Source: Candidatus Latescibacterota bacterium | Lineage (GTDB): Bacteria; Latescibacterota; UBA2968; GCA-2709665 | Direction of reading: 5' to 3' | DNA: 10,039 nt | NCBI GenBank assembly: GCA_030746455.1 | Contig: JASLMQ010000689.1 | Coordinates: 1 to 10,039 of the forward strand | In this document: piece by piece, positions 1,169-10,039 of the stretch | Numbering within the stretch: position 1 is the stretch's first letter | Layout: the number at the start of each line of letters is the position of its first letter | The notes under the pieces: generated by a model | What the model was told of the DNA's origin: nothing | The model's input: only the letters and a program-made list of their open reading frames with translations | Databases searched by the model: none | Program-made: the position numbers and the translations under genes

Positions 1169-1972
1169 TCAGACACCTTCGCGCTTCTCGGCCACGAAGA
1201 CCATCTGTTGGGAATCGTCCGTGTACGGGGATTCATCGAAGTTCCCGAAGATGTCGAGGACGCCGAATCCACATCGCGCCAGGAGGTGTTCCATCTCGAA
1301 GCGGTAGAAATAGCGCATCGGGAACGTCTGGCTGAAACGCCGCGTCTTTCCGCCCGGACTCGTGACGGTGTAGGTCATCTCGATTTCGTTGTACTGCTCG
1401 GCACGATGGAAGCCCGTGGTTCGGTGCGTCCGCCTGAGGGTAGATCCGTCCGGTAGGGGCGCATCCCGGAAGTCCTCAGCTTCCTGGGCGTACTTCGGGT
1501 CGTGGAGCCTGGCCGGGTTCACGTTGAAGAGGTCGAGGATCAGCCTGCCTCCCTCGAGAAGGTGCCGGTTGGCGCTTCGGAGGCAAGACAGCTGCTCCTC
1601 CGTGCTCACGATGTGCTGGAAGGACCGGAAGGGGGTGGTCACGAGGCCAAATCGAGAATCGAGGTCGAACGCGACCATGCTGTCTTGCACGAGCTTGGCC
1701 CGCCGTTGCACCTCAGGGTCTTCCGCACGGAGCTTGTCCCTGCACCGCTTGAGCATGTATTCGGAGTGATCCAGTCCCACCACCTCACAGCCCGCTCGTA
1801 CCAGCGGTATGAGGATCCGGCCGGTGCCACACCCCAGCTCGAGGATCGGGCCCGTCGACTCGCGGGCGAACTTCAGGTAGAACGCCTGATCCTCGCGGTC
1901 GAAGTAGCCCGGAATGCAGTCGTAGACCTCGGCCACTGAAGGTTCGTCTTCGTATCCCCCATACTGGTTCAT
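1169..1972 (-). CDS. Class I SAM-dependent methyltransferase, first of three
   Basis: This 267-residue protein has the Rossmann-fold methyltransferase core. Motif I is ILELGCGTGRIL at 43-54, with the acidic residue D68 at the end of strand 2 (VVGLDHS) to bind the ribose of S-adenosylmethionine. RLILDLFNVNPARLHD (143-158) is the motif after the fourth strand. The C-terminal half has charged and aromatic stretches (RYFYRFEMEHLLARCGF, 220-236) that resemble the usual beta-6/beta-7 end of the fold, finishing MVFVAEK. Nothing in the sequence shows the acceptor substrate. I choose ATG at 1972, which has GGGAG 7 bases upstream. An in-frame start at 2206 would add 78 residues of arginine-rich sequence crossing the hairpin, and I consider that false. 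The next methyltransferase begins 16 bases after the stop, so these two are cotranscribed. Confidence 0.85.
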   Translation of the reverse strand: MNQYGGYEDEPSVAEVYDCIPGYFDREDQAFYLKFARESTGPILELGCGTGRILIPLVRAGCEVVGLDHSEYMLKRCRDKLRAEDPEVQRRAKLVQDSMVAFDLDSRFGLVTTPFRSFQHIVSTEEQLSCLRSANRHLLEGGRLILDLFNVNPARLHDPKYAQEAEDFRDAPLPDGSTLRRTHRTTGFHRAEQYNEIEMTYTVTSPGGKTRRFSQTFPMRYFYRFEMEHLLARCGFGVLDIFGNFDESPYTDDSQQMVFVAEKREGV

Positions 1973-1979
1973 CGATCGT

Positions 1980-1984
1980 CTCCC
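1980..1984 (-). promoter_or_regulatory. Ribosome binding site of the first methyltransferase
   Basis: The minus strand reads GGGAG, 7 bases before the ATG at 1972. It supports this start over the upstream in-frame codons. Confidence 0.6.
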
Positions 1985-2072
1985 GGAGGCGGGTTGCAGG
2001 TCCTGCGCTTCTCGTTTCGAGGTTAGACCGGCCTGTGCGCTGGCCTGTTTCGTTGACGTTGGGGTACGCCTT

Positions 2073-2101
2073 TGGGGCGCATCCACACCGGATGCGCCCC
2101 A
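2073..2101 (-). terminator. Perfect GC-rich hairpin after the sugar-acid block, without U-tract
   Basis: An 11-base arm at 2074-2084 (GGGGCGCATCC) pairs perfectly with 2090-2100 around a 5-base loop. An extra T-A pair at 2073/2101 makes the stem 12 pairs. It lies about 150 bases past the aldolase stop and 100 bases before the next start. In the direction of transcription the stem is followed by AAAGGCG, so it lacks the U-run of a standard intrinsic terminator. It may be a non-canonical terminator, an mRNA-stabilising 3' end or an operator. On the plus strand only a weak pyrimidine stretch follows. Confidence 0.45.
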
Positions 2102-2208
2102 TCTTGCCTTCCCCTGTCTCTGCTCCCTAGGCTCGTCCGCCTCTCCTTCCACTCTGTTCGGCCACCAAGTCGATCCGATCCCTGCCCCGAGGGCCGGCCC
2201 CTGCATTT

Positions 2209-2250: not shown

Positions 2251-3036
2251 CTACCCTCTCCTCCCCAGGCCCTTCCTCACAGCCTCGAGCCCCGCACGCA
2301 GTCCTTCCTGGTAGATCTGGATGTCCAGACCATAGGCCAACATTCGGAAGCCTCGACCCGCCCAGTGGACCGCCTCCTCAGCGCTACCCATCATACGTCC
2401 GGCAAAGGCGCCACGCCTCTCGGCCGCCTCCGCCACCTGGTCCATGGCCTTCTGGAATCGCCTGTGCTTGAAGTCCGCGGGGATTCCCATATTCTGGGTC
2501 AGATCGAAGTGTCCCACCCACGCCACGTCGATCCCCTTCACTGAAAGGATCTCGTCCACATTCTCAACACCAGCCTGGCTTTCGATCTGCGCGAGGATCA
2601 TCGACTCTCGGTTGCTGCTCGCCATGGTCTTCACGATGTCATCCGACCGGTAGTTGTCGTGCGCGACCCCGAATGCCGTTCCCCGCTTACCCAGAGGGCC
2701 GTACTTGATCGCATCAACGATCTGCTGCGCCTGGTCCGCCGACTCCACCATGGGCACCATCAGCCCCATCGCCCCGGCATCCATGGGCCGGCTCATCAGA
2801 TGGTAGGCGGTTGCCGGCGGGCGAACCAGCGGCACCAGGTCGCAGTTCCTGCACCACGCCATCATCTCCGCGATCCGCTCGATGGTGAATCGCGTGTGCT
2901 CCTGGTCGAAGATCACGAACTCGGCGCCGGCCAGCTCGCACAGCCTGGGCAAGCCCGGGGTGTCGAACTCGAATACCAGTGTGCCCAACGACACCTCGCC
3001 GCGCCTCAGCTTCTTCTTCACCTTGTTCGTCTTCAT
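2251..3036 (-). CDS. HpcH/HpaI-family aldolase (class II, 2-oxo acid type)
   Basis: This 261-residue protein has the usual length of HpcH/HpaI TIM-barrel aldolases, metal-dependent enzymes that split or form 2-oxo-4-hydroxy acids with pyruvate-like products. Visible family landmarks are LGTLVFEFDTPG (18-29), FDQEH with H47 as the expected catalytic base, VPLVRPP with R72, DAGAMGLMVPMVESADQA (86-103), GPLGKRG (113-119), AQIESQAGVENVDEI with metal ligand E152, and VGHFDLTQNMG with metal ligand D178. The last motif has histidine where the family commonly has proline (GP-DL). Two adjacent ATG codons are available. AGGAGG lies only 1 base from the first (3039) but 4 bases from the second (3036), so I chose the second. 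The gene follows the 2-hydroxyacid dehydrogenase by about 30 bases and is the last gene before a hairpin. It probably cleaves a 2-oxo acid made from apionate or another sugar acid; the substrate is not readable from the sequence. Confidence 0.85.
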   Translation of the reverse strand: MKTNKVKKKLRRGEVSLGTLVFEFDTPGLPRLCELAGAEFVIFDQEHTRFTIERIAEMMAWCRNCDLVPLVRPPATAYHLMSRPMDAGAMGLMVPMVESADQAQQIVDAIKYGPLGKRGTAFGVAHDNYRSDDIVKTMASSNRESMILAQIESQAGVENVDEILSVKGIDVAWVGHFDLTQNMGIPADFKHRRFQKAMDQVAEAAERRGAFAGRMMGSAEEAVHWAGRGFRMLAYGLDIQIYQEGLRAGLEAVRKGLGRRG

Positions 3037-3040
3037 CATG

Positions 3041-3046
3041 CCTCCT
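3041..3046 (-). promoter_or_regulatory. Ribosome binding site of the aldolase gene
   Basis: The minus strand reads a perfect AGGAGG. It is 1 base from the ATG at 3039 and 4 bases from the ATG at 3036. The tight spacing favours the second ATG and is short even for that one. Confidence 0.7.
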
Positions 3047-3068
3047 GTGCTCGCATGGTCGAACGGTG

Positions 3069-4109
3069 TCAGCGCGTCCCGTAGCCATCCAGCTTGGTGC
3101 GCAGCCCAGAGCGATCCAGAACCTCAGCGTTCACCACGTGCTCCGGCACCTCTCCACGCGAGACCGCCAGAACCGACTCGCATGCCATCATCCCGATCGC
3201 GAGGAAGAGCTCGTCCGTCCAGGCGAGCCCGTGGGGCGTCCCAATGAAGTTGTCCAGCGTGAAGAGCGGATGTTCAACCGGCGGCGGCTCTTCCACGAAC
3301 ACGTCGCTGGCGGCGCCCTGGATCTGTCCCGATTCTAGAGCATCATAAAGCGCTTCTTCGTCCATGATTGGGCCACGCGCCGTGTTGATGAAGTAGGCCG
3401 TGGGCTTCATCTGGGCAAAGGCCTCGGCGTTCACCATCGCCTCGGTCTCGTCCGTGAGCGGACAGTTCACGCACAGGAAGTCGGATTCGCGCAGAAGCGT
3501 CTTCCAATCGACCAGCTCCACCCCCAGCTCGAATGCACGCTGTCGGTCTGCGTACGGGTCGTGCGCCAGGAGCCTTGCCGTGCGATACGGACGAAGCAGC
3601 TCGAACATCCGCGATGCGATTCCCCCCAGCCCGATCGATCCCACAACCTTGTCCGAAATGTCGCTCCCCATGTGATGGACCTTCTCGTGGAACCGTCCCT
3701 CCCGCGTCAGCCGAGCCTTCAGGAAGACGCGTTTGGCGAGGGCCTGCATCAGGCAGAGGATCGACTCGGCAACCGGATTATCCACCGCGCCCCGCGTGAT
3801 GGTCAACATCACGTCGGCGGCCGTGCAGGCATCCACGTCGACGCTGTCGTACCCCACTCCGAACCGCGCGATCAGCGCCAGCCGATCCACCCCCTTCAGG
3901 CTGTCTGCCGTCACCTTTGGAGTCAGGACGATTACGGCGTCGATGCCCTCCAGCTGCGCCGGCGTAAGCTCGGAGCCGCCGGGCTCGAGGAATACGTGCT
4001 CGATGCCCGGCCCGTCCAGCAGCGCCAGCCCGATGTCTCTGTATGCGAGCTCTCCTGACGCCGACAGAAAATTGTGGGTCAAACCTACACGGAAGGGGTT
4101 GTTCTCCAT
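3069..4109 (-). CDS. D-2-hydroxyacid dehydrogenase (phosphoglycerate dehydrogenase-like)
   Basis: This 346-residue cytoplasmic NAD-dependent enzyme belongs to the D-isomer-specific 2-hydroxyacid dehydrogenase family, which interconverts 2-hydroxy and 2-oxo acids. The substrate-binding domain is split around the nucleotide domain, which starts near 105. The NAD loop is GLGGIA at 160-165, with D184 in AHDPYAD as the likely ribose-binding acid. The catalytic set is complete: R245 in NTARGPIMDE, E274 in DVFVEEPP and H293 in TPHGLAWTDE. The segment RFGVGYDSVDVDAC (82-95) is also typical. A GTG at 4133 would add eight residues. I prefer ATG at 4109 because GGAG lies 9 bases upstream. The gene follows the apiose dehydrogenase by 52 bases with no terminator, so it may act on D-apionate or a later 2-oxo acid such as hydroxypyruvate. 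This role is inferred from position only. The GLAWTDE stretch after the histidine differs from the common GG-T form, so classical phosphoglycerate dehydrogenase is unlikely. Confidence 0.85.
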   Translation of the reverse strand: MENNPFRVGLTHNFLSASGELAYRDIGLALLDGPGIEHVFLEPGGSELTPAQLEGIDAVIVLTPKVTADSLKGVDRLALIARFGVGYDSVDVDACTAADVMLTITRGAVDNPVAESILCLMQALAKRVFLKARLTREGRFHEKVHHMGSDISDKVVGSIGLGGIASRMFELLRPYRTARLLAHDPYADRQRAFELGVELVDWKTLLRESDFLCVNCPLTDETEAMVNAEAFAQMKPTAYFINTARGPIMDEEALYDALESGQIQGAASDVFVEEPPPVEHPLFTLDNFIGTPHGLAWTDELFLAIGMMACESVLAVSRGEVPEHVVNAEVLDRSGLRTKLDGYGTR

Positions 4110-4161
4110 GGCTGCATTCTCCGCGTTTGCCACCTCGTGACCGAGGCTGCCCGTCTCCTGT

Positions 4162-5187
4162 TCACTTTGCAGTTCCTACCCGATACACCTCGCCCGTCTC
4201 CGCCGATTCGTAGGCCCCGAAGACCAGCTCCAACGTGCGCAAGTTGTCGCGTCCGGTTGTTTCCGGTTCACGATCCGTGTGCAGACAGTCGGCCCAGTGC
4301 TGCTGGGTCGCGACCACGCTTCCCTGCACGACCTCGAAGCCCGGCTCCATCCAGTCACTTCCGGGGAGATCGAGCTTCACGTTCCGGGTCCCCTCATCGT
4401 CAGTCACGGTGAGTCGATAGTGGCTCCCAAGCGTGGCCGAGCTGTCGCCTGTTTCCAGGTGCACCAGCGTCTGCGGGAACAGATCCTCCTCCAGCGTGGA
4501 CGCGAAGCTCATCTCGACGCAGCACGTGGCACCGCCAGCCATTCTCAGCAGAACCGTGGCTACATCCTCTCCCCGAATCCGGGGATTCACCCGCTGCGTG
4601 TGGCAGGTGAGATACTCGGCCTCGCCCACGAAGAACCGGGCCAGGTCCAGCAGGTGAACACCCATGTCATACAGGATGAACCTCGGGTCTGTGGCCAGAT
4701 AGGGCTGAGCCGTGTACACGTCCACGCCGCTGCGGAAGCTCACCCTGCAGAAGAAGGGATCGTCCAATCCCGCGGCCGCCTCCTTAAGCGCCCGCATCGG
4801 TGCCTGCCAGCGGAAGTTCTCGTGCACCATGGACTGCACGCCGGCGGCGTCGCACGCAGCCACCATCGCCTTGGCATCCTCCAGGCTCGGTGCCAGGGGC
4901 TTCTGACAGATCACGTGCAATCCCGACGCGGCCACAGCCTCGACGGCGGCCCTGTGCGCATCGGGATGGGTGACGACATCGACGAAATCGAGGGACTCGG
5001 TCTCGAGCATAGCCTCGAGGTCTGTGTAGGCCTTCGCCACGGCGAACTCGCCCGCATACGTCCTCGCACGCTCACCTACCAGATCACACAATGCAACGAT
5101 CTCGGCGCCACTCACCTCGCGCCAGGCGTGGAGGTGATTCCTGGCCCAGAATCCGCAACCGACAAGCCCGCCTCGGAGCTCAGCCAT
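4162..5187 (-). CDS. apsD: Gfo/Idh/MocA-family oxidoreductase, probable D-apiose dehydrogenase
   Basis: This 341-residue NAD(P)-dependent dehydrogenase probably oxidises D-apiose to D-apionolactone, the substrate of the enzyme encoded just upstream. Residues 6-125 form the Rossmann domain, starting with GGLVGCGFWARNHLHAW. K97 lies in CQKPLA, a variant of the family's EKP motif. MVHENFRWQAP is at 120-130. The C-terminal domain has SFRSGVDVYTAQPYLA (150-165), D174 and H178 in YDMGVHLLD, and RVNPRIRGEDVAT (199-211). The HENFRWQ, FRSG-DV, QPYLA and RVNP-I-GEDVAT features match what I remember of D-apiose dehydrogenases closely. An ATG at 5223 would add 12 residues, but I choose ATG at 5187. It has GAGGAG at 7 bases, its reading starts MAELRGGLVGCGFW like other family members, and it overlaps the upstream stop by 8 bases, which is typical of coupled translation. 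The Gfo/Idh/MocA family is near certain; the substrate is less so. Confidence 0.75.
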   Translation of the reverse strand: MAELRGGLVGCGFWARNHLHAWREVSGAEIVALCDLVGERARTYAGEFAVAKAYTDLEAMLETESLDFVDVVTHPDAHRAAVEAVAASGLHVICQKPLAPSLEDAKAMVAACDAAGVQSMVHENFRWQAPMRALKEAAAGLDDPFFCRVSFRSGVDVYTAQPYLATDPRFILYDMGVHLLDLARFFVGEAEYLTCHTQRVNPRIRGEDVATVLLRMAGGATCCVEMSFASTLEEDLFPQTLVHLETGDSSATLGSHYRLTVTDDEGTRNVKLDLPGSDWMEPGFEVVQGSVVATQQHWADCLHTDREPETTGRDNLRTLELVFGAYESAETGEVYRVGTAK

Positions 5188-7147
5188 CGGCCTTCTCCTC
5201 GCAGTCGATCCGTACCAGGCCATGGGGTGGCAGACTCAGGCCGAATACACCATCCCTGACCTGCTCCTCAATGCCCTGCTCCGCGCGGTACGCTTCGGGA
5301 TCGCTCATTGCGCGCTGAGCCGTGTGCGCGTCGAGGCGGCTGACCCGTACCCGAGAGCCCATGCCGTCGCATTCGATACGCACCCTCTGGTCCTGTGCGC
5401 TCAAGTTGGCCAGCAGGACACGAACCCGGTCTCTCGACCTCAGCACCAATCCGTCGACGTCCAGAGGACGGGTCGACCGGCCCGGCAGCATCACCCCTCC
5501 ACTGAATTCGCCTACGTCCGCCAGCACGTGATAGAGCGGGAAGACTGTGCCCGGAGTCGAGGGGAAGGCATCAGGAAGCGAGGACCCGGCCTCGGTCTCC
5601 ATCGTACCCCGCCATCCCGTGGTCTCGTAGTAGGTGATAGATGAGACACCGCTCTCCGACAGGTACTTGATGCTCCCCAGGGTCCATCCCGCTCCCAGAA
5701 GCGAAATCTGACGTGCGTCCGCCTCCGGGGGCAGTGTCCCCGGAGGTGAGTCTAGGGCCTCGCCGGTCGCATTCGGGTTGAACCGGGGCTTCATCGTGAC
5801 CGGGGAAACGGCAACCGGCAGTCCCCCCACGAAGCCTCGCGCACTCTGAACCGTCGTACCCTGGGCCTCCAGCGTCTCGACAATCGAGGCGTCGTCGAAC
5901 GCGTGCACCTGGGGGTTCAGCGAGTAACAGACCAGGTCCAGCGATTCCGTTGGCGGACGCTGGCGGTTCAACTCCGTGAAGTAGGCGTCGGTCCCTCCGC
6001 CGATCGGGGCATCGGGGTCGTATGCCGCCAGGTGCCTGCGTGCGAGCAGGACCTCGCCCACCTCGGTGTGCCGGGTCATTGCATCGAAGACGAGCCACCG
6101 CGCGATCTTCGGATGCAGATCGTCAAGCGCTCCCCTGAGCCTTCCGAGCGCATCACCGGAGCTGTCGCTCAGGTACAGGGCCGCCTCGAGGCCAACGCCG
6201 AGGGCGCCCGCCTCGGCCGATGCGGCTCGAAGCACGTCCTCCCACCCCTCCTCTTCCATCCATAGGTCGACGCGCAGGTGCCCGAGGTCAAGCTTCCGGA
6301 GTCGTGCGACCTCCAGTTCAGTGAGGGTCTCTCCGTGGCTTGCCGATCCGAGACCGATCCGGGGCAGGCGTACAGGTGGCGCGTCACGCAGCGCCAGGAC
6401 CACCTCCTCCGTTTGCGTGACGCCTGTAGCCCGTGTCGGCGGCACACCATCGCTGACGGACAACCGGATCGACTGCCTGATCTGTGAGCCCTCGGTGATC
6501 CGGACCGGGAAGGGCAGGTCCAGCGGCGTGCAGTACGTCTTGAACGACGCGTCCGTCCAGTTCCGCTGGTCCTCCATCTCGAAGACATCGCCTTCGAACC
6601 GCACTTCCGCCCATACGCCCGGCATCACCTCGTGCGAGATGGCCTGCATACCCATGAAGGGCTGATGGGGAGCAATCGCTTCTGGCAGGTCGCCTTCCTC
6701 CAACACGCCGTCCACGTGCCGGACCCGGCAGGCTGCCCCCGCGGCCGAAGCGGGATGGAGCACGCAGAATCCGATCCGATTTCTCAGGAAGATCGACCGT
6801 GCGCTCCCATCCATCGTGAAGGTCGCGACCCCGGCCTCACTCCCCGTGATTGTTCCCTTCCATACGAAATCGATCTCGGCCGCACTGCACGTCGCGGTGA
6901 ACGTCAGCCGGAAGGCGTTCGACGATCCATCGTGAGCAAGATCCGTGATGTCAGGCTCGACAGTACCCCAGTTGTGGTCGCGAACCGCTGCATAGATGCC
7001 ACGCAGGACTTCGCGGTCGCCCAGGCGCACGTATCGCAGGAAACCGGTCCCCGGCTCGAACACCATGGTCAGGGGGCCTGCACACAGATCGATCCGCGCT
7101 ATCGCCGGCCCCCCGTGGCCATCGTGAATCACGTGGTCTGCGGTCAT
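5180..7147 (-). CDS. apnL: Probable D-apionolactonase (D-apionate lactonase, ApnL family)
   Basis: This 655-residue protein probably opens D-apionolactone to D-apionate in the breakdown of the branched plant sugar D-apiose. No signal peptide is seen, so it should act in the cytoplasm. Recognition rests on the N-terminal part: GFLRYVRLGDREVLRGIY (35-52), VRDHNWGT (55-62), IDFVWKGTITG (92-102), FLRNRIGFCVLHP (120-132), and then HQPF and EVRFEGDVFEMEDQRNWTDA (181-200) followed by SFKTYCTPL. I associate these with the ApnL family. The layout fits an N-terminal beta domain (about 1-235), a central TIM-barrel-like part (about 260-555) and a C-terminal beta domain (about 560-650). The start is ATG with GAGG 8 bases upstream. 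The stop overlaps the start of a gene that looks like D-apiose dehydrogenase, the preceding enzyme in the pathway, and this supports the call strongly. I cannot point to catalytic residues. The alternative is a related uncharacterised glycoside-hydrolase-like protein. Confidence 0.65.
   Translation of the reverse strand: MTADHVIHDGHGGPAIARIDLCAGPLTMVFEPGTGFLRYVRLGDREVLRGIYAAVRDHNWGTVEPDITDLAHDGSSNAFRLTFTATCSAAEIDFVWKGTITGSEAGVATFTMDGSARSIFLRNRIGFCVLHPASAAGAACRVRHVDGVLEEGDLPEAIAPHQPFMGMQAISHEVMPGVWAEVRFEGDVFEMEDQRNWTDASFKTYCTPLDLPFPVRITEGSQIRQSIRLSVSDGVPPTRATGVTQTEEVVLALRDAPPVRLPRIGLGSASHGETLTELEVARLRKLDLGHLRVDLWMEEEGWEDVLRAASAEAGALGVGLEAALYLSDSSGDALGRLRGALDDLHPKIARWLVFDAMTRHTEVGEVLLARRHLAAYDPDAPIGGGTDAYFTELNRQRPPTESLDLVCYSLNPQVHAFDDASIVETLEAQGTTVQSARGFVGGLPVAVSPVTMKPRFNPNATGEALDSPPGTLPPEADARQISLLGAGWTLGSIKYLSESGVSSITYYETTGWRGTMETEAGSSLPDAFPSTPGTVFPLYHVLADVGEFSGGVMLPGRSTRPLDVDGLVLRSRDRVRVLLANLSAQDQRVRIECDGMGSRVRVSRLDAHTAQRAMSDPEAYRAEQGIEEQVRDGVFGLSLPPHGLVRIDCEEKADG
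5195..5200 (-). promoter_or_regulatory. Ribosome binding site that fixes the start of the apiose dehydrogenase gene
   Basis: The minus strand reads GAGGAG, 7 bases upstream of the ATG at 5187. It lies inside the last codons of the upstream lactonase gene. No comparable site serves the ATG at 5223, so this site decides the start and implies translational coupling. Confidence 0.7.
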
Positions 7148-7199
7148 TGTACCGGCCTCAAAAGCCCAAAGACATCCACGGCAATACGGCCATCCACAC

Positions 7200-8633
7200 C
7201 TACCTCACATCGTATCTGATGAACGCCACGTAGGCCCCCGCGAATCCCACAATGACCAGGAGCGACAGGTTCAGGATGTACGGAAGGTTCCGATAAAGGC
7301 AATCGCGCAGCTTCTCACGGTCCTCGTATGCGAAGGGAGAGAAGTCGGTGAGGTTGGGGACCTCCTCGGACTGCTTTTCAAGGGCGTACTGCGCGAAATC
7401 GGCCAGATGCGCCTGAAGGACATCCTCGACCCGCTCTTGCTGAACATAGCTCGTCCGCGCGAGGTCCGTGGACAAAAACGTTACCGCACCCATGGGCGAC
7501 AGGGATGCCAGCGCAGCCGACCAACGTCGCTGTCTGCGCATCTCGTTGCGTCTTCTGATGAGGATGCTCGACAGATCGGGATGGATCCGAGCCTGCCATC
7601 GCTGCAGGATGGTCTTCTCGCCATCGAGAAGCTGCTGCTGTCGCGCGGGCGTCAGGTGACCGATGGCATCGAAGGTGCGCCCCAGCACGCGCCGCAGTCC
7701 GAAGCCCGGGATACCATGCCTATCCCAGTATGCCGCCACTTCATCGGTACGACCCATAATTCCGTGCCATCTGGCGGCGTAGGCCTTCCTCTCGGCTGCG
7801 TTGAACGATGTGGACGGTGCCACGGCACGCGAGATCCGCACCGCCAGATTTGGGATCACGAACAGCCAGGCAGTCCACATGCCCAGGAGGCAGAGGAAGG
7901 CGGTCAGCCGCCGGTGTGTCAGTGCCGACACCATCAGCCCAAAGGCGGCGAAGACCATCAGATAGAGCGCGAAGACGCCCGCCAGCGCGGTCCACCGGGC
8001 CCAATCTCCAGCGCCCATATCGAGATCGGGCGATGTTGCGAGCACGAGCGCGGCAATGAGACAGCAGAAACCCAGCGGAACCAGTACGGCGAGGACGGCG
8101 CCCGACAGCTTTGCTGCGGCGAGCATGGACCGGGATGCAGAAAAGGAGGCCACCAGCCGGAGCGTGCCTTCTTCCTTCTCCCCACAGATGGCGTCGTACG
8201 TGAACAGGAGCACGCTGAGGCTCAACACGACCGTTACGATGAACCCGAAGTCGAGCACCTCGAAAAAGCCATAGCTCGGGTCGGTCGCGAAGAGGCTGGC
8301 CTCGAACTCCGGGAGCACGTCTCGCTGGATGTGGACCTCCTGCCCCTGCTTGCCGGACAGTCCGTAGACGACCGGACTGAGAACGGCGGGGGGCCTGTTC
8401 CACCTGTAGCCGACCCACGAGAACTGGTTGAGGCTCCCACTCGCCATCACCTCTTCAAGCGCGCGACGGTTCGCGCCCGTCACCGAGCTGTGGTCCTTGA
8501 TCTGACGGGCGTAGTTCCGTGTGCCCATCAGCACGCTGGCGCCGGACAGCAGGACGCAAAGCGCAAAGACGATCACGAAACGCAGGTCGAGGACGTAGTT
8601 GAGAAACTCCTTCTGAAGCAATCGCACAAACAC
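7200..8633 (-). CDS. ABC-2 type transporter permease (NosY/DUF3526-like), second of a tandem pair
   Basis: This 477-residue inner-membrane protein is a paralogue of the permease just upstream. The two would be expected to pair as a heterodimer with a shared ATPase, which is not visible here. Hydrophobic segments lie near 18-36, 126-146, 175-200, 211-238, 243-263 and 453-472. An extracytoplasmic loop of about 90 residues separates the first two, as is usual in this family. The signature FTYDAICGEKEEGTLRL is at 144-160, and LSPMGAVTFLSTDLA at 378-392 resembles a motif of DUF3526 permeases. The C-terminus is IRYDVR. The start is GTG at 8633. An AAGGTAGGG stretch lies 7 bases upstream and overlaps the stop codon of the previous gene. 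A second in-frame GTG two codons later is possible. A 52-base gap to the next gene shows no terminator, so read-through into the sugar-acid block is possible, although the roles may be unrelated. Confidence 0.85.
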   Translation of the reverse strand: MFVRLLQKEFLNYVLDLRFVIVFALCVLLSGASVLMGTRNYARQIKDHSSVTGANRRALEEVMASGSLNQFSWVGYRWNRPPAVLSPVVYGLSGKQGQEVHIQRDVLPEFEASLFATDPSYGFFEVLDFGFIVTVVLSLSVLLFTYDAICGEKEEGTLRLVASFSASRSMLAAAKLSGAVLAVLVPLGFCCLIAALVLATSPDLDMGAGDWARWTALAGVFALYLMVFAAFGLMVSALTHRRLTAFLCLLGMWTAWLFVIPNLAVRISRAVAPSTSFNAAERKAYAARWHGIMGRTDEVAAYWDRHGIPGFGLRRVLGRTFDAIGHLTPARQQQLLDGEKTILQRWQARIHPDLSSILIRRRNEMRRQRRWSAALASLSPMGAVTFLSTDLARTSYVQQERVEDVLQAHLADFAQYALEKQSEEVPNLTDFSPFAYEDREKLRDCLYRNLPYILNLSLLVIVGFAGAYVAFIRYDVR

Positions 8634-8640
8634 TATGGCA

Positions 8641-8649
8641 CCCTACCTT
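8641..8649 (-). promoter_or_regulatory. Ribosome binding site of the second permease, overlapping the upstream stop codon
   Basis: The minus strand reads AAGGTAGGG here, and GGG ends 7 bases before the GTG start at 8633. The TAG stop of the upstream permease (8645-8643) lies inside this stretch. That suits reinitiation or coupled translation, which would keep the two permease subunits in balance. The match to the anti-Shine-Dalgarno sequence is partial. Confidence 0.5.
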
Positions 8650-10039
8650 ATGTCGTACCTGACCATGCTGAAATACGCGCCCGCAAAGAACAGCAGCGAC
8701 CACAGGCACAGCCTTCCCGCATCAAGGATCACTGCCAGGAGCTGTTCGGAAGGCCACTCCTCCTGGTACACGAAACGGGGCATGTCATCGGCGTGCCACC
8801 GATTCGCTCCGCGCCGATCCGGATCGGCCTGGCCCTGGCTGATCCGCGCCGCGGCCTGGCGATACCAGCGCGATCGCAGGCCCATGTGCTGCCAGAAGGC
8901 CCTCAGGAACCGCTGCTCACGCTCGGGTCCCGTGCCCGCCAACCCGAACGTTGCCCGCTTGAGTGCGAGCGTCGGCGAAAGCTCGCCCAGAACCAACAGC
9001 AGCTGCATCCTGGTCTGATACCGGTTGTTGAAGGTCTCTGACAGTCGCCGCCAGCTCGGACCGAACTCGGTCCACCCCTCGCGCAGAAAGCGGTTGGAGG
9101 CTGCATCCCGGGCCTTCCGGATCTCGGGGTCGGTGTCCCATCCCGGGTGCTCTCGCTCCCACTGATCGAGTTTCAGCCTTCGCTGCTTGAGCACCTCGCT
9201 CCGAAGTGCCTCCTTCTGGGCCTGCAGCTCGTGGATCGACATGGCCGGTCGAAGGGTGTCCGCGAGAACGAGGCCCAATCTGGGAAACAGCGTCACCGAA
9301 ACGACCCAGTACACGAGCAGAAGTACGAAGGATGTGCCGGGGCTGTGTGTGAGAGACGATGCGAGTATCCCCGCGAAGAGAAAGACGGCAAGGTAGCCGC
9401 CGAAGACCACCAGGATCAGGGCAAGGCGGCCCCATTGCGGCCCCGCCAGCTCGAATCCCGGCAGCAGCAGGAGCATGGAAAGACCAAGGAGAAGGGGAAT
9501 CCCGAATGCAGCCATTAGTGGGATGGCCGCCCCAACGAGCTTGGCGAGGAGGAGCCGATAGCGAGGGACACTGAAGGAACCCATCAGTCGAAGGGTTCCC
9601 GCCTGCTTCTCCCCGCACACCGCATCGTACGTGAAGAGCAGGACGAACAGGCTCAGCACGACCTGCACCACGGTCCCCAGGTCTGTTGACGGAAACAGCC
9701 CGGTCAGAGGACCCACCTCCGACGGGCTGCGCTTCATTCGGACGTTCGATGTCCCGATCGCGTGGATCGCCTGCCCCAGGGTCGGCTCCATGCCCCGGAC
9801 CAGTACGCTCAGGGGGGTCGGTGGCTTGTGGAGCACGTACCCCATGGCCGAGTACTCGCTGAGCGAGGCACGCGGGTCCCGCAACTGGGAGTAGCGCTCA
9901 TCGAGGGAGAGCTGCCCGGTTCGGTAGTTCTTGAGCTGCTCCTGGTACGCGGCATACCCGTCCGCAAGGCTGAACCAGATCAGCGAGGCGCCGATCGCGG
10001 TGAGGATCAGGAACCTCAGGCTCAACAGCTGGTCGAGCA
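8643..10039 (-). CDS. ABC-2 type transporter permease (NosY/DUF3526-like), 5' end outside window
   Basis: This is an integral membrane subunit of an ABC transporter, probably an exporter of the NosY/DUF3526 type. The substrate is unknown and the ATPase subunit is not in the window. The frame stays open to the right edge: TTG at 10025 would be the first usable start, but in-frame codons for L-D-Q-L precede it. These align with F-L-N-Y-V-L-D-L-R-F of the downstream paralogue, so about ten N-terminal residues are probably missing. Counting from the TTG codon, hydrophobic segments lie near 3-20, 114-133, 161-190, 200-225, 232-254 and 435-455. The signature FTYDAVCGEK...GTLRL is at 131-147, just after the second segment. 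The region at 265-345 is hydrophilic and charged. The protein ends in RYDIR, almost the same as its neighbour. Its stop codon is 9 bases from the next start, so the two genes are cotranscribed and probably translationally coupled. The family is fairly certain; the transported compound is not. Confidence 0.85.
   Translation of the reverse strand, partial: LDQLLSLRFLILTAIGASLIWFSLADGYAAYQEQLKNYRTGQLSLDERYSQLRDPRASLSEYSAMGYVLHKPPTPLSVLVRGMEPTLGQAIHAIGTSNVRMKRSPSEVGPLTGLFPSTDLGTVVQVVLSLFVLLFTYDAVCGEKQAGTLRLMGSFSVPRYRLLLAKLVGAAIPLMAAFGIPLLLGLSMLLLLPGFELAGPQWGRLALILVVFGGYLAVFLFAGILASSLTHSPGTSFVLLLVYWVVSVTLFPRLGLVLADTLRPAMSIHELQAQKEALRSEVLKQRRLKLDQWEREHPGWDTDPEIRKARDAASNRFLREGWTEFGPSWRRLSETFNNRYQTRMQLLLVLGELSPTLALKRATFGLAGTGPEREQRFLRAFWQHMGLRSRWYRQAAARISQGQADPDRRGANRWHADDMPRFVYQEEWPSEQLLAVILDAGRLCLWSLLFFAGAYFSMVRYDIR

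Follow-up and report, generated by a model that had tools for sequence, protein, structure and literature searches.

A predicted variant of the D-apiose pathway in a Latescibacterota gene block that pairs a 2-hydroxyacid dehydrogenase with an HpcH/HpaI aldolase

Introduction

The oxidative pathway of D-apiose runs through ApsD, ApnL and ApnO, and then through either OiaC or OiaK with OiaX/OiaT; such pathways were reportedly set out by Carter et al. in 2018. The oxidative routes described so far use an oxidoisomerase together with decarboxylating or RuBisCO-like enzymes. Here we analyze a four-gene block at positions 2251..7147 of a 10,039-nucleotide stretch of DNA from a Candidatus Latescibacterota bacterium (contig JASLMQ010000689.1; the whole stretch is referred to as the window). 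The upper half of this block resembles the oxidative D-apiose pathway in having adjacent genes of the lactonase and Gfo/Idh/MocA dehydrogenase families, whereas ApnO and Oia genes are missing and a D-2-hydroxyacid dehydrogenase (HADH) and an HpcH/HpaI aldolase are found instead. We consider the block likely to be an apiose-type operon in which an alternative takes the place of the usual lower half, and predict that it represents a new variant of the known apiose pathway.

As far as their accessible text goes, published sources mention the canonical oxidative route (PMC6302742), a cluster of lactonase, dehydrogenase, oxidoisomerase, kinase and decarboxylase genes with growth on apiose (PMC11747546), and a kinase/transketolase route for apiose in E. 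coli (PMC13001218). Among the titles and abstract openings listed in searches of the open literature, we found no description of a route for apionate through an HADH and an aldolase, and other papers may describe one.

Results

The four genes all lie on the minus strand, and the family assignments and positions given in the initial annotation were borne out by profile and structure-database matches. The first gene (5180..7147) encodes an ApnL-like gamma-lactonase of the D-apionolactonase family (655 amino acids; NF049900), and the second (4162..5187) an ApsD-like Gfo/Idh/MocA dehydrogenase of the kind that converts an aldose to a lactone (PF01408, PF22725 and PF02894; PDB 5uhw). They are followed by the HADH gene (3069..4133; PF02826 and PF00389), whose product we propose to be a D-apionate 2-dehydrogenase, and by the gene for an HpcH/HpaI class II 2-oxoacid aldolase (2251..3039; PF03328), the proposed formaldehyde-releasing lyase. 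For the ApsD-like gene, listed among the open reading frames with a start at 5223, we took the ATG at 5187, which overlaps the ApnL stop; the HADH start is the GTG at 4133 or, alternatively, the ATG at 4109. The lactonase and ApsD-like genes thus share an 8-nt overlap (ATGGCTGA), and the gaps that follow are 28 nt (ApsD-like gene to HADH) and 29 nt (HADH to aldolase), the latter containing an AGGAGG ribosome-binding site. From the overlap and the short gaps, the four genes look like a single transcription unit. The block is real and, given its recurrence at other loci (below), non-random. The lack of ApnO and Oia genes in the block, also noted initially, held as well: profiles for ApnO, OiaC, OiaK and RuBisCO-like OiaX gave no match in the window at E 1e-10, a result for this locus only.

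We propose, with a confidence that stands about midway, that D-apionate is oxidized at C2 and then undergoes retro-aldol cleavage with loss of formaldehyde, which would replace the ApnO/Oia lower half. The sequences themselves show which genes are present, how tightly they are packed, that the arrangement recurs, that the two lower halves exclude each other at the locus level and that the motifs are intact; every substrate and product in the scheme we infer. Judging from their families, ApsD would convert D-apiose to D-apionolactone, which the ApnL-like lactonase would then open to D-apionate. The HADH, in place of ApnO, would oxidize C2 of D-apionate to give 2-oxo-3,4-dihydroxy-3-(hydroxymethyl)butanoate, which would be a polyhydroxylated analogue of ketopantoate. 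D-apionate is (2R)-2,3,4-trihydroxy-3-(hydroxymethyl)butanoate, and the R configuration of its C2 fits a D-specific dehydrogenase. The metal-dependent HpcH/HpaI aldolase would then split the C3–C4 bond, yielding formaldehyde and 3,4-dihydroxy-2-oxobutanoate; the retro-aldol reaction would give formaldehyde because the carbon adjacent to the keto group bears a hydroxymethyl substituent. On these chemical grounds, C2 oxidation and a formaldehyde-releasing retro-aldol step would form a coherent sequence. A longer version, which we offer tentatively and regard as doubtful, would be a redox-neutral apionate pathway built from one dehydrogenase and one aldolase: after C2 oxidation and the first cleavage, 3,4-dihydroxy-2-oxobutanoate would be cleaved again to a second formaldehyde and hydroxypyruvate, and the same HADH would reduce hydroxypyruvate to D-glycerate.

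Pantoate biosynthesis in reverse would work alike: run backwards, the ketopantoate reductase PanE and the ketopantoate hydroxymethyltransferase (KPHMT) PanB would turn a 2-hydroxy acid into a 2-oxo acid, which would then lose its C3 hydroxymethyl group. The window pair, however, belongs to other families (2-HADH and HpcH/HpaI) and would be catabolic, and PanB is also present in many such genomes. The accessible text of the relevant sources reports that YfaU or KPHMT with formaldehyde, followed by ketopantoate reductase, gives 2-hydroxy-4-butyrolactones in vitro (PMC10127515), that some HpcH aldolases accept hydroxypyruvate as nucleophile and that KPHMT with formaldehyde builds quaternary carbons (both PMC7610986), and that hydroxypyruvate is reduced by several 2-HADH groups (PMC6303947). 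The in vitro cascade shares with our scheme the aldolase family (YfaU), formaldehyde, 2-oxo and 2-hydroxy acids and gamma-lactones, but it runs in the opposite direction, is artificial, uses other ketoreductase families and, in the accessible text, includes no substrate with a C3 hydroxyl (PMC10127515).

The sole NCBIfam match of the window lactonase was NF049900, D-apionate lactonase, at 338.6 bits against a model cut-off of 750. A Pfam scan of this protein returned no family and a PDB sequence search no relative at E ≤ 1; its relatives comprised 7483 proteins at E ≤ 0.001 among 7998 candidates scored. The structure model (predicted local distance difference test, pLDDT, 81.3) gave a partial match to GH79/GH30-like folds (template modeling score to the query 0.40–0.45), and the lactonase is perhaps built on a glycosidase scaffold. 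The ApsD-like protein, encoded next to the lactonase, had its best PDB match in 5uhw (323.5 bits, residues 13–350); this entry, labelled in the PDB only as 'Oxidoreductase protein', we take to be Agrobacterium ApsD. It is also 56% identical to the ApsD-like product of another lactonase locus, L028, where the gene run is ApnL, nucleoside-hydrolase-like, ApsD, OiaX-like, OiaK-like and ApnO-like. The OiaX and OiaK names at L028 derive from NCBIfam models matched at 539.5 and 486.1 bits, respectively, short of the cut-off of 700. Throughout, "ApnO-like" denotes a putative assignment from PF16896, a weak KARI_N match and position, and "OiaC-like" one from PF01261 and position.

Both enzymes of the lower half have intact motifs. 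The HADH carries GxGxxG and motifs with R253, E282 and H301, presumably the catalytic Arg, Glu and His. In the aldolase, D45, H48, R73, E153 and D179 are invariant across all 20 aligned sequences, and Q151 is shared by 18 of the 20; among them we take the E and D to bind metal, the R to bind substrate and the H to be catalytic. The aldolase matched YfaU (2vws) at 122 bits, and its structure model (pLDDT 85.6) had 3qz6, SbnG and YfaU as top fold matches, with GarL and HpaI structures also found. Against the named NCBIfam subfamilies (HpaI, RhmA-type and two GarL models), it missed all four cut-offs, the best score being 130.7 against 368.8 bits.

We then compared the block with other lactonase loci. 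A genome scan with the lactonase alignment confirmed at least 578 places, of which the best 80 were retained, giving 81 loci with the window. Neighbour profiles were built from recurring neighbour clusters of these same loci. Class A loci carry ApnO, OiaC, OiaK or a RuBisCO-like protein (RLP), any of them at ≥200 bits; class B loci carry HADH at ≥400 bits (in L070, two frames summed) or HpcH at ≥200 bits. L068 was put in class B by hand (HADH 557 bits, with an aldolase fragment of 65 bits at the contig end), and L005 and L006 were left out, their HADH matches being weaker (254 and 229 bits). Class A comprised 23 loci, class B 15 (12 of them with both HADH and HpcH) and neither class 43. No locus belonged to both classes (Fisher p=0.0044; p=0.016 for the 12 with HADH and HpcH), and the overlap was likewise nil when at least 5 kb was required on either side of the lactonase (41 loci: 15 A, 7 B, p=0.035), although these p values are only a guide since the contigs are often short and the loci related.

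The conserved clustering anticipated from the window alone was indeed found elsewhere. HADH, aldolase and lactonase occur together in 11 of the 80 other loci, including L068 with its contig-edge aldolase fragment and L070 with the pair ~3.4 kb from the lactonase. These clusters come from Poribacteria, Latescibacterota, Planctomycetota, Rokuibacteriota, Actinomycetota, Verrucomicrobiota and one alphaproteobacterium, and their gene orders vary: HADH-HpcH-ApnL in L002, L009, L011, L029 and L033; ApnL-HpcH-HADH in L076 and L080; HpcH-HADH-ApnL-BASS in L047; HpcH-HADH-ApsD-ApnL in L073, the alphaproteobacterium, which has all four functions; and ApnL-ApsD-HADH-HpcH in the window. The aldolases of L047, L073, L076 and L080 form another subfamily, 24–27% identical to that of the window (24% for L073). 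Two of them are fused, in single open reading frames near HADH and lactonase, to two following cupin domains (L076:11903-13567 and L080:2633-4273), and the L047 aldolase (5619-7277) agrees with these fusions in length and profile score. A local ApsD gene was present in 11 of 23 A loci, 2 of 15 B loci (the window and L073) and 6 of 43 others. At L021, an apiosidase-like gene (830 bits) adjoins the lactonase. BASS transporter genes lie directly beside the lactonase in 8 of the 80 loci (L047, L049, L061, L062, L066, L068, L071 and L079), which belong to Verrucomicrobiota and Planctomycetota.

Across 24 loci (class B, related Poribacteria and those with BASS), the widest neighbour clusters were the lactonase (20), the dehydrogenase (16), the aldolase (16) and the BASS transporter (7); sulfatase-like, DUF1501, SDR and other, partly annotated clusters recur in two to five. 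These clusters bear on a different order of reactions, in which the HADH would act last: a dehydratase encoded elsewhere (IlvD-like or of the enolase superfamily) would make a 3-deoxy-2-oxo acid, the aldolase would release formaldehyde from it, and the HADH would reduce the 2-oxo product. Characterized HpcH/HpaI aldolases, including those behind the HpaI, RhmA-type and GarL models matched below cut-off, mostly use 3-deoxy-2-oxo acids; by our own reasoning, apionate would be a polyhydroxylated analogue of dihydroxyisovalerate, and at L156 an enolase-superfamily gene lies ~4 kb from an HADH-HpcH pair. Against this, no dehydratase was recognized in the recurrent clusters, not all small ones of which are annotated, and we judge this order unlikely.

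We also searched the whole genomes behind the 14 class B loci other than the window. OiaX/RLP was found in none of the 14, and full-length OiaK likewise in none (G004 and G006 had weak partial matches). Full-length ApnO was found in one genome, G007, with weak partial matches of 20–30 bits in nine others, and OiaC at >200 bits was again found only in G007, with 78–98 bits in three others. The predicted absence of apnO and oia genes from relatives thus stood for OiaX/RLP and full-length OiaK and failed for ApnO and OiaC in G007. Four control genomes gave OiaX/RLP in 4, OiaK in 3, ApnO in 4 and OiaC in 3, controls that are partly circular for ApnO and OiaC, whose models each include sequences from three of the four. 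As the B-locus genomes are mostly metagenome-assembled genomes of unstated completeness, absence is weak evidence for any single one. ApsD homologues of 43–49% identity lie elsewhere in G001, G003 and G007 (48–49% in G001 and G003), with weaker ones of 37–38% in G009 and G012; the G001 alignment crosses stops at its start, its open frame scoring 429.6 bits. The ApsD of G011 is L073's own gene.

In the remainder of the window, two ABC-2 type permease genes with DUF3526-like parts (7200-8633 and 8643-10025, minus strand) lie upstream of the lactonase gene and end 52 nt before it, and two mutually overlapping genes with methyltransferase domains (487-1272 and 1169-2206, minus strand) lie downstream of the block. 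Searches of the window for Rfam families at gathering score and for tRNA genes found none. Between 2100 and 7400, we counted one promoter-like site (0.9 in shuffles) and four terminator-like sites (2.3 in shuffles, standard deviation 1.5).

Discussion

Several findings speak for C2 oxidation followed by formaldehyde release: the linkage of HADH, aldolase and lactonase in different phyla and gene orders, the separation of classes A and B, the repeated changes between them on the lactonase tree, the near absence of ApnO and Oia genes from the B-locus genomes, the apiosidase-like neighbour at L021, the in vitro synthesis in the reverse direction, the use of hydroxypyruvate by HpcH aldolases, and the R configuration of D-apionate C2. 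A number of observations weigh against this route in the window, and they come from its own proteins as well as from other loci, genomes and phyla. The lactonase scores below the NF049900 cut-off. The lactonase of L059, which lies beside ApsD-, ApnO- and OiaC-like genes, reaches only 296.5 bits; the missed cut-off alone therefore does not exclude the lactonase function, and these scores suggest that the threshold is drawn more tightly than the family as a whole. The window HADH forms a long branch in its tree, and the window aldolase falls outside the other ApnL-linked aldolases, in the company of metagenome proteins whose context is unknown. No formaldehyde-handling gene was recognized in the recurrent clusters, several small ones of which are unannotated. 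A quick lactonase tree (82 rows; branches starred at SH-aLRT 95 or more) requires 6 changes between the A and B states, at least 4 of them forced by starred branches, and these changes count in favour of the route. Shuffled labels need 12.7 on average; the labels are thus also clustered by descent and the loci are not independent, which counts against it. On this tree, L012 (A) and L073 (B) are sisters.

Further points of this kind concern the whole genomes. Besides its HADH/HpcH module, G007, the genome of L047, has a canonical set on a different contig, with genes resembling OiaC, ApnO, ApsD and an apiosidase. ApnO was found in 5 of 84 Poribacteria genomes, and three of these (G019, G020 and G026) also have a strong aldolase; in G026, the ApnO-like gene lies ~9 kb from the HADH-HpcH pair. 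Exclusivity of ApnO and aldolase at the genome level is accordingly rejected, and it holds at the locus level only. These genomes speak for an ordinary apiose route, in which ApnO and oia genes would lie elsewhere in the genome and the HADH and aldolase would be unrelated sugar-acid genes; in the window's own host, the search covers the window. We nonetheless consider this explanation very unlikely, given the locus-level exclusivity of classes A and B, the near absence of ApnO and Oia genes from the 14 B-locus genomes, and a linkage that extends over varied gene orders and both aldolase subfamilies.

How closely the aldolase follows the lactonase differs between phyla. In the 84 Poribacteria genomes, the aldolase was found at >320 bits in 10, the lactonase in 12 and both in 6, so that 6 of 12 ApnL genomes and 4 of 72 others have the aldolase (p=0.0004). 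The seven best aldolases all adjoin an HADH, and three of these pairs adjoin a lactonase (G001, G003 and G042); in G026 and G033, the lactonase lies on a contig other than that of the pair. Adding to the contrary evidence, G025 and G041 of this phylum carry the pair without ApnL, and the 64 Latescibacterota genomes show no association: the aldolase (E 1e-90) occurs in 24, the lactonase in 7 and both in 3, that is, in 3 of 7 ApnL genomes and 21 of 57 others (p=1.0). In the latter phylum, an HADH lies within short flanks of 15 of 25 aldolase places. RLP genes are found at the ApnL loci of G126, G127, G144 and G145, accompanied by OiaK at two of these loci. An aldolase subfamily exclusive to ApnL is thus rejected as a general rule, and pairs without ApnL indicate a module wider than apiose. 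Overall, the initial interpretation is supported in part: its gene assignments, the lack of ApnO/Oia genes at the locus and the recurrent clustering hold up, and the pair is not exclusive to ApnL loci.

The wider contexts of the pair also raise the possibility of a different natural substrate, a branched 2-hydroxy-gamma-lactone or acid such as pantolactone or pantoate; the lactonase would then open the ring, and the HADH would make ketopantoate, from which the aldolase would release formaldehyde. PPS (PF02006), HADH and aldolase are packed together in Latescibacterota G160–G163, with a GHMP-type, archaeal-type pantoate-kinase-like gene in front in L162 (6222-9596) and L173 (2073-5513), the two seen at full width; this, too, counts against the apionate route, as does the lack of a local ApsD in 13 of the 15 B loci. 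The order in L160, L161 and L172 is kinase-PPS-GH2-like-aldolase. The kinase-PPS context hints at pantoate-like chemistry resembling that proposed for apionate. Of the BASS transporters beside the lactonase, one that was scanned (L049) matches the PanS pantoate-transporter model at 196.6 bits against a cut-off of 400. In addition, PanB was not found in G006, G007, G009 and G012, incomplete genomes that carry the lactonase-linked module. Other facts favour apiose: ApsD is part of the window block and of L073, and ApsD homologues occur elsewhere in G001 and G003; the same lactonase family has ApnO/Oia genes as neighbours in 23 of 81 loci, and in 6 of 80 an apiosidase-like gene (>500 bits) accompanies it. 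PanB is moreover present in 59 of 64 Latescibacterota genomes and in 13 of 20 genomes of another set, which includes B-locus genomes (it was not found in G004, G006, G007, G009, G012, G025 and G026); the pair therefore does not stand in for PanB in general. On balance, we hold a pantoate-type substrate to be decidedly unlikely.

Pantoate-kinase-like/PPS contexts were also seen in L150 and L152–L154, with L153 coinciding with L173 and L154 with L162. PanB was found in 6 of the 7 genomes with such contexts, the exception being G162. Replacement of PanE and PanB by the HADH-HpcH pair was dropped as a general explanation on the PanB counts given above.

A route of C2 oxidation with loss of formaldehyde would add one more way of handling apiose, a common pectin sugar, and would be a source of formaldehyde in nature. 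It would account for lactonase loci that lack ApnO and Oia genes in several poorly studied phyla, and would assign a function to a so far unassigned group of 2-HADH enzymes and to HpcH subfamilies. If the redox-neutral pathway were true, environmental bacteria would obtain formaldehyde naturally from the apiose of plant walls, and the dehydrogenase–aldolase pair would be a portable module for hydroxymethyl-branched 2-hydroxy acids.

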